A DNA stretch of 36,312 nucleotides, from assembly GCA_021734745.1 (NCBI GenBank), contig JAIPIK010000010.1, positions 1-36,312 on the forward strand, in the 5' to 3' direction. The DNA is from Candidatus Altimarinota bacterium. Its GTDB lineage: Bacteria > Patescibacteriota > Minisyncoccia > Phycocordibacterales > UBA5272. Below, in pieces: positions 1-26,332 of this stretch. Below the pieces are notes generated by a model that saw only the letters and a program-made list of their open reading frames with translations, was not told the origin of the DNA and did not search any database. The number at the start of each line of letters is the position of its first letter. The stretch's first letter is position 1. Both the position numbers and the translations under genes were made by a program.

Positions 1-44
1 GGGGGGTGAACGGATCTTGAGCACCGGAGGATTAGAACACACTC

Positions 45-73
45 AATATATCAGAACATCGTGAGCATGTCAA
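45..73 (-). promoter_or_regulatory. Sigma70-type promoter reading left, out of the window
   Basis: Read on the minus strand, TTGACA (73-68) is followed after exactly 17 bases by TATATT (50-45). The predicted start is near position 38, so the transcript leaves the window almost at once. The first bases of that transcript match no RNA or protein that I recognise. The gene it serves lies outside the window. Confidence 0.6.
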
Positions 74-116
74 TGCCAAGTACGATATTTTTAGTTAAGT
101 TTAAAAGGTAAAACAA

Positions 117-341
117 AAAAGCCAGCTTGTTGCTGGCTTTGTGTGGGGTTGTTCCCCCACAACGCATCTTCAAATGGGACGGGCGGATTCCAGTAACTTC
201 TTACTTGCTTTTGATTCAGCAAGCTCGACAACTTTCGTCGGTACTGTTTGGGAAGAAGCTTGTGAAAAGACTCCTCACAGTTTCAGAAACTTCCACAGAA
301 CCCTCTTTGTTTCCCGTGTGGATGAAAACCCATTTGAAGAC
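117..341 (-). ncRNA. Unassigned structured small RNA with own promoter and terminator
   Basis: A near-consensus minus-strand promoter (348-376) predicts a start near 341. From there the sequence folds into a closed structure. Bases 340-329 pair perfectly with 178-167 (12 bp), extended by 317-313 with 183-179 (5 bp) across an 11-base bulge. Inside are hairpins at 240-226 (CGAC stem, GAAA-containing loop) and 223-204 (CTTGCT/AGCAAG), plus a longer imperfect arm around 310-245. After the closing stem come a GC-rich hairpin (161-142) and an intrinsic terminator (140-118) with a minus-strand T-run. No open reading frame in the transcript exceeds a few dozen codons or has both a start codon and a Shine-Dalgarno site. 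Pairing of the two ends and a body of about 175 nt recall 6S RNA, but I cannot match a 6S, SRP, RNase P or tmRNA signature, so the identity is open. Confidence 0.6.
118..140 (-). terminator. Intrinsic terminator of the small RNA
   Basis: AAAGCCAGC and GCTGGCTTT form a 9-bp stem around a 5-base loop (TTGTT). On the minus strand the stem is followed by a run of T (plus-strand A-run before 118). It closes the transcript that starts near 341. A second GC-rich hairpin (142-161) lies just upstream in the same transcript. Confidence 0.8.
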
Positions 342-347
342 TAATAC

Positions 348-376
348 AGTATATCATTCTAACTGTATGTTGTCAA
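348..376 (-). promoter_or_regulatory. Consensus promoter of the small RNA
   Basis: On the minus strand TTGACA (376-371) and TATACT (353-348) are separated by 17 bases. The predicted start near 341 coincides with the first base of the closing stem of the downstream RNA, which supports both calls. Confidence 0.75.
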
Positions 377-382
377 GTATAA

Positions 383-391
383 TTATCCACA
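383..391 (+). promoter_or_regulatory. DnaA box
   Basis: TTATCCACA is an exact match to the classical 9-base DnaA box. It lies between the divergent small-RNA promoter and the 21-residue gene at 457. Only one box is present here, so this looks like a regulatory site and not an origin. The same word occurs ahead of mraZ and lexA. Confidence 0.5.
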
Positions 392-456: not shown

Positions 457-522
457 ATGGCAAAAAAAGAACAGCATGGAACACGTGAAAAAAAGAAACC
501 AAAGAAGGTGGTTGCAAAGTAG
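457..522 (+). CDS. Very short basic protein (21 aa)
   Basis: The frame ATG...TAG encodes a lysine-rich 21-residue peptide beginning MAKKEQHGTREKKKPKK. Very short basic peptides with a related G-x-R-E-x-K-K-P-K core are widespread as hypothetical proteins in bacteria; I recall the pattern but cannot search it. A -10-like TATACT (415-420) gives a leader of about 30 bases, with no clear Shine-Dalgarno sequence. A strong terminator with a GAAA loop follows at 551-578. The basic composition would suit nucleic-acid or ribosome binding, but function is unknown. Confidence 0.55.
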   Translation: MAKKEQHGTREKKKPKKVVAK

Positions 523-26323: not shown

Positions 26324-26332
26324 TTATCCACA
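26324..26332 (+). promoter_or_regulatory. DnaA box upstream of mraZ
   Basis: TTATCCACA, an exact DnaA-box match, lies 29 bases before the first MraZ box, near where the -35 region of the mraZ promoter would lie. DnaA could link division-gene expression to replication. This is a sequence match only. Confidence 0.5.

Follow-up and report, generated by a model that had tools for sequence, protein, structure and literature searches.

The first bases of this contig raise the question of whether they hold a small RNA (sRNA) gene, and whether the pairing of the two ends of its product makes that RNA a 6S RNA or a regulator of another kind. The window, that is the whole stretch of 36,312 nt that was analysed, is contig C4 of genome G000 taken from the contig's first base; the genome assembly comprises 30 contigs (960 kb, 35% GC, 97% complete) and resembles Patescibacteria in gene content and size. 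On the minus strand, a promoter-like site TTGACA-17-TATACT is present at 376-348, as in the original prediction, and its predicted start at 342/341 agrees with the position of about 341 given there. From this site we infer the transcription of an RNA, hereafter RNA1, and the GC hairpin (160-141) and T-run terminator (140-113) that had been described at its end are both present. The elements of this unit are:

348-376, minus strand: RNA1 promoter (-35 TTGACA at 376-371, 17-nt spacer, -10 TATACT at 353-348, TG preceding the -10)
113-342, minus strand: RNA1, with a predicted length of about 225 nt (start at 342/341, end within the T tract)
329-341, minus strand: closing stem, 5' strand (pair probability 0.86 for the terminal G-U, G341-U166, and 0.97-1.0 for the others)
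166-178, minus strand: closing stem, 3' strand, partner of 341-329
313-317, minus strand: second stem, 5' strand ACGGG, pairing with 183-179 (CCCGU) in the MFE and centroid folds
179-183, minus strand: second stem, 3' strand CCCGU, in the MFE and centroid folds
226-240, minus strand: internal hairpin CGACGAAAGUUGUCG of the predicted fold
203-225, minus strand: internal hairpin (A)GCUUGCUGAAUCAAAAGCAAGU of the predicted fold
141-160, minus strand: GC hairpin UGUGGGG-GAACAA-CCCCACA of the predicted fold
113-140, minus strand: intrinsic terminator of RNA1, 9-bp stem (stem and T run at 140-118)

The 36-kb window contains only two TTGACA-16/18-TATAMT sites, compared with an expectation of 0.12, and of the 49 strong promoters in the whole genome just four, that of RNA1 among them, have a terminator no more than 300 nt downstream. 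RNA1 is present in a single copy in the genome. With its own promoter, a structured body, an intrinsic terminator and no ORF, it has the predicted make-up of a stand-alone bacterial sRNA gene.

The pairing of 340-329 with 178-167 proposed earlier holds in our folds, as 12 Watson-Crick pairs, nearly all at probabilities of 0.97-1.0, and one G-U pair extends it to a helix of 13 bp (341-329 with 178-166) that begins at the predicted 5' end, G341 being the first base of the stem. Among 200 dinucleotide shuffles of 342-163, the longest helix at any position measured 11 bp, the longest one with its start confined to the first four bases measured 7 bp, and no shuffle contained a helix of 12 bp. The whole transcript (a 229-nt segment) folds at -84.9 kcal/mol compared with -60.8 +/- 4.8 for the shuffles (z of -5.05, equalled by 0 of 200); the 3' hairpins add to this score, the portion upstream of the terminator giving a z of -3.9 alone. 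The interior is predicted to be multibranched, the closing stem being followed by a one-sided bulge UUUUCAUCCAC (328-318), the ACGGG/CCCGU stem, a third stem and hairpins, among them the expected ones at 240-226 and 225-203.

The absence of a known signature was borne out by a search of the window against Rfam, run up to E 5: RNA1 could be assigned to no family, no model reached its cut-off, and whatever scored below the cut-off in the RNA1 interval was at chance level (E 0.38 or worse). SRP RNA, 6S and tmRNA were rejected as identities of RNA1 on the same search, and ARAGORN likewise finds no tmRNA in the window. A retron-type ncRNA, considered because of the end stem, was rejected, since the terminator closes the unit and no reverse transcriptase was noticed by eye among the window's ORFs. 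Searches for homologues were equally negative: at the DNA level, RNA1 retrieves only itself in 21 family genomes and nothing in phages and plasmids, a single-sequence covariance model recovers itself plus noise in the family genomes (E 0.05 or worse per genome), and the same model yields no credible homologue in 297 genomes of the order. The two best matches in the order (E 0.0035 and 0.007), unremarkable since values of this size are expected given 297 genomes, were discarded as they lie inside ORFs of 298 and 363 aa. When genome contigs were scanned with a 14-mer of the closing stem, the matches were all scattered over organisms with no relation to this one. The promoter, the stem from +1, the terminator and the lack of any Rfam match thus support the original description of an unassigned structured RNA gene.

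As regards other RNA systems of this lineage, G000 lacks an SRP54-family GTPase (Ffh/FtsY), and no small SRP RNA rose above noise in the 21 family genomes (G000 and 20 relatives), although the controls were detected; the lineage may lack the SRP pathway. ARAGORN, used alone on the 30 contigs of G000, reports tRNAs and no tmRNA.

Two alternative identities can be weighed on these data. That the interval is a small ORF, or the attenuator leader of a protein gene, is very improbable. Short frames do exist, for example a 16-codon internal frame from an ATG within the closing stem, but those of the minus strand are tiny, and the longer ones on the plus strand (98 and 67 aa, with TTG/GTG starts) match nothing in NCBIfam, in line with the earlier statement that no open frame makes sense; moreover, the terminator is followed within about 45 nt by a new promoter, and the sequence is gene-free up to the contig end. 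As for the resemblance to 6S RNA (RF00013) that had been suggested, RNA1 does have paired ends, a size of about 200 nt and its own promoter. The resemblance found no support, and RNA1 is not 6S. The closing stem of the 6S rod is there, but the MFE and centroid folds are predicted to be multibranched instead of leading through a central bubble to a terminal stem-loop, and no match to the 6S model appears at E up to 5. This model also detects no 6S in the 21 family genomes, an absence that means little because it recovered just six of 14 control genomes. One could still imagine RNA1 as a functional replacement of 6S that binds RNA polymerase through the closed stem and the bulge, given the end-to-end stem from +1, the length of about 225 nt, the strong promoter and the undetected 6S of the family. 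Nevertheless, the interior departs from the rod and RNA1 is not conserved in the genus, contrary to what a housekeeping RNA would show, so that such a replacement is highly unlikely.

Synteny places RNA1 in a wider context. Divergently from it lies a small gene that serves as a marker of synteny:

457-522, plus strand: 21-aa basic protein MAKKEQHGTREKKKPKKVVAK (KKKPKK), divergent from RNA1

This protein matches no Pfam or NCBIfam family. Close versions of it are found across the genus, and a profile built on it has matches in 74 of 297 genomes of the order (E up to 1). In the genus, the divergent flank of its gene is followed first by a gene of unknown function and next by rpmA (L27), and in ten congeners (G004, G005, G006, G008, G009, G010, G012, G013, G014 and G017) this flank contains an sRNA-like unit with promoter and terminator. 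No such unit was found at the locus of the 21-aa protein in G003, G007, G011, G015 and G016, and among the loci inspected by eye in distant families none revealed an obvious unit of this kind. The sRNA loci of the genus are labelled L011 (1737-1814), L215 (1365-1294, minus strand), L002, L006, L007, L008, L010, L212 and L213. CCUCC is present in eight of the ten congener units, whereas shuffles contain it in 3.2 on average and reached eight once in 1000; on the antisense strand, used as a control, one unit of ten contains it. In most of the units the motif is predicted to be unpaired.

These congener RNAs recall known families. The alpha-r14 sRNAs have anti-Shine-Dalgarno loops with CCUCCUCCC as their defining feature, on stems that vary (PMC10746234), and a small DUF1127 protein is encoded on the same transcript as the CcsR RNAs of Alphaproteobacteria (PMC10253847). 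Similarly to the CcsR (CcsR1, RF02791), cuckoo and alpha-r14 RNAs, those of the congeners' locus are short, carry CCUCCUCCC in hairpin loops and stand beside a gene for a small basic protein. In contrast to CcsR/cuckoo, the partner here, also next to RNA1 (457-522, plus strand), is a divergent 21-aa KKKPKK peptide, not a co-transcribed DUF1127 protein. The RNA of G014 matches anti-hemB (RF02837) over its full length (45.8 bits, E 1e-9), and that of G009 matches the whole model too (38.9 bits, E 2e-6), with a weak match to CcsR1; in both the C-rich hairpin and the terminator are covered, although the two scores remain below the 49.5-bit cut-off. Neither RF02791 nor RF02837 finds a match in the window, and RNA1 differs from these families as it lacks CCUCC, so that no hairpin loop of it presents this motif or CCUCCUCCC.

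The architecture closest to that of RNA1 comes from G008, whose small protein is identical to MAKKEQHGTREKKKPKKVVAK. Its RNA is closed end to end by an 11-bp stem, GUUCUCGGUGG/CCAUCGAGAAC, unrelated in sequence to the stem of RNA1, and its ends pair better than those of all 200 shuffles. Beyond this stem, the predicted fold continues with a GCGGGU/AACCCG stem and then a multibranch, one loop of which contains CCUCCUCCC. The modelled architectures of the two RNAs suggest common descent.

Two further elements close to the contig end bear on this relationship; this second promoter with its C-rich transcript (73-1) had escaped the original description, as had the conserved sRNA locus of the relatives:

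45-73, minus strand: second promoter TTGACA-17-TATATT (11/12)
1-38, minus strand: RNA2, a further putative sRNA of which only the 5' portion is present, the contig ending within it; it bears UCCUCC at 31-26

RNA2, rather than RNA1, may be this species' counterpart of the CCUCC-loop sRNA of the genus. Since rpmA is absent from the assembly, the contig end probably falls immediately ahead of the region found next in the relatives.

Whether RNA1 itself belongs to the CCUCC-loop sRNAs depends on how its own sequence is read. It could be a diverged orthologue of the genus's CCUCCUCCC anti-Shine-Dalgarno-loop sRNA, acting via CUUCUUCCC, its stretch nearest to CCUCC, if an alternative fold exposed it. 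RNA1 and the congener units agree in position, orientation and promoter type, the G008 RNA combines a closing stem with CCUCCUCCC, and the loop UCUUCUCCC of G009 is intermediate. However, CUUCUUCCC is largely base-paired in the predicted ensemble and lacks a flanking hairpin of its own, and UCCUCC is carried by the second RNA downstream, which makes this orthology a tentative and rather unlikely reading. In addition, a Shine-Dalgarno-like motif is present in only 12% of the genome's start regions (as given by crude start calls), weakening a general anti-Shine-Dalgarno function. More improbable still is a new class of end-closed sRNAs formed by RNA1 and the G008 RNA, in which the architecture (stem at +1, CGGG/CCCG stem, multibranch) would have been kept while nearly all of the sequence was replaced, in a lineage without detectable 6S, and which could regulate global transcription or translation.

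We regard RNA1 as an independently transcribed, intrinsically terminated and end-closed sRNA gene at a fast-evolving locus, most likely encoding a trans-acting regulator that would work by base pairing, a reading to which we assign a probability of roughly 0.55. In its favour, the promoter, the stem and the terminator all have strong statistical backing and the coding alternative is poor; against it stand the missing CCUCC and the lack of homologues by sequence or covariance model. We propose a trans-acting mode since the place is given over to sRNA genes and the RNAs of the relatives bear an antisense motif that is known from other phyla. The closing stem, starting from the first transcribed base, would shield the 5' end from decay and could hold the unpaired UUUUCAUCCAC (328-318), AAACAAAGA and CCCAAACAGUAC available for pairing with mRNAs; target prediction from the accessible segments of RNA1 gave no signal beyond noise.

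RNA1 is thus a genuine and well-delimited orphan sRNA gene of an ordinary kind, and the genus-wide CCUCC sRNA locus is more interesting than RNA1 itself. There, an sRNA gene has been kept at a fixed place in the genus despite an almost complete turnover of its sequence, and sRNAs with anti-Shine-Dalgarno loops of the CcsR/cuckoo kind apparently also occur far from Proteobacteria. Among open-access papers searched with narrow terms, none dealt with 6S RNA or with anti-Shine-Dalgarno sRNAs of bacteria whose genomes are as small as these.

A short motif separates the divergent promoters of RNA1 and the 21-aa gene:

383-391, plus strand: TTATCCACA

It is present in this position, exactly or as a TT[AG]TCCAC[AT] variant, in 13 of 15 loci of the genus, and its sequence is that of the consensus DnaA box of E. 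coli. The genome contains it 23 times, often just upstream of -10-like sequences, with further copies in the window at 26324 and 34391.
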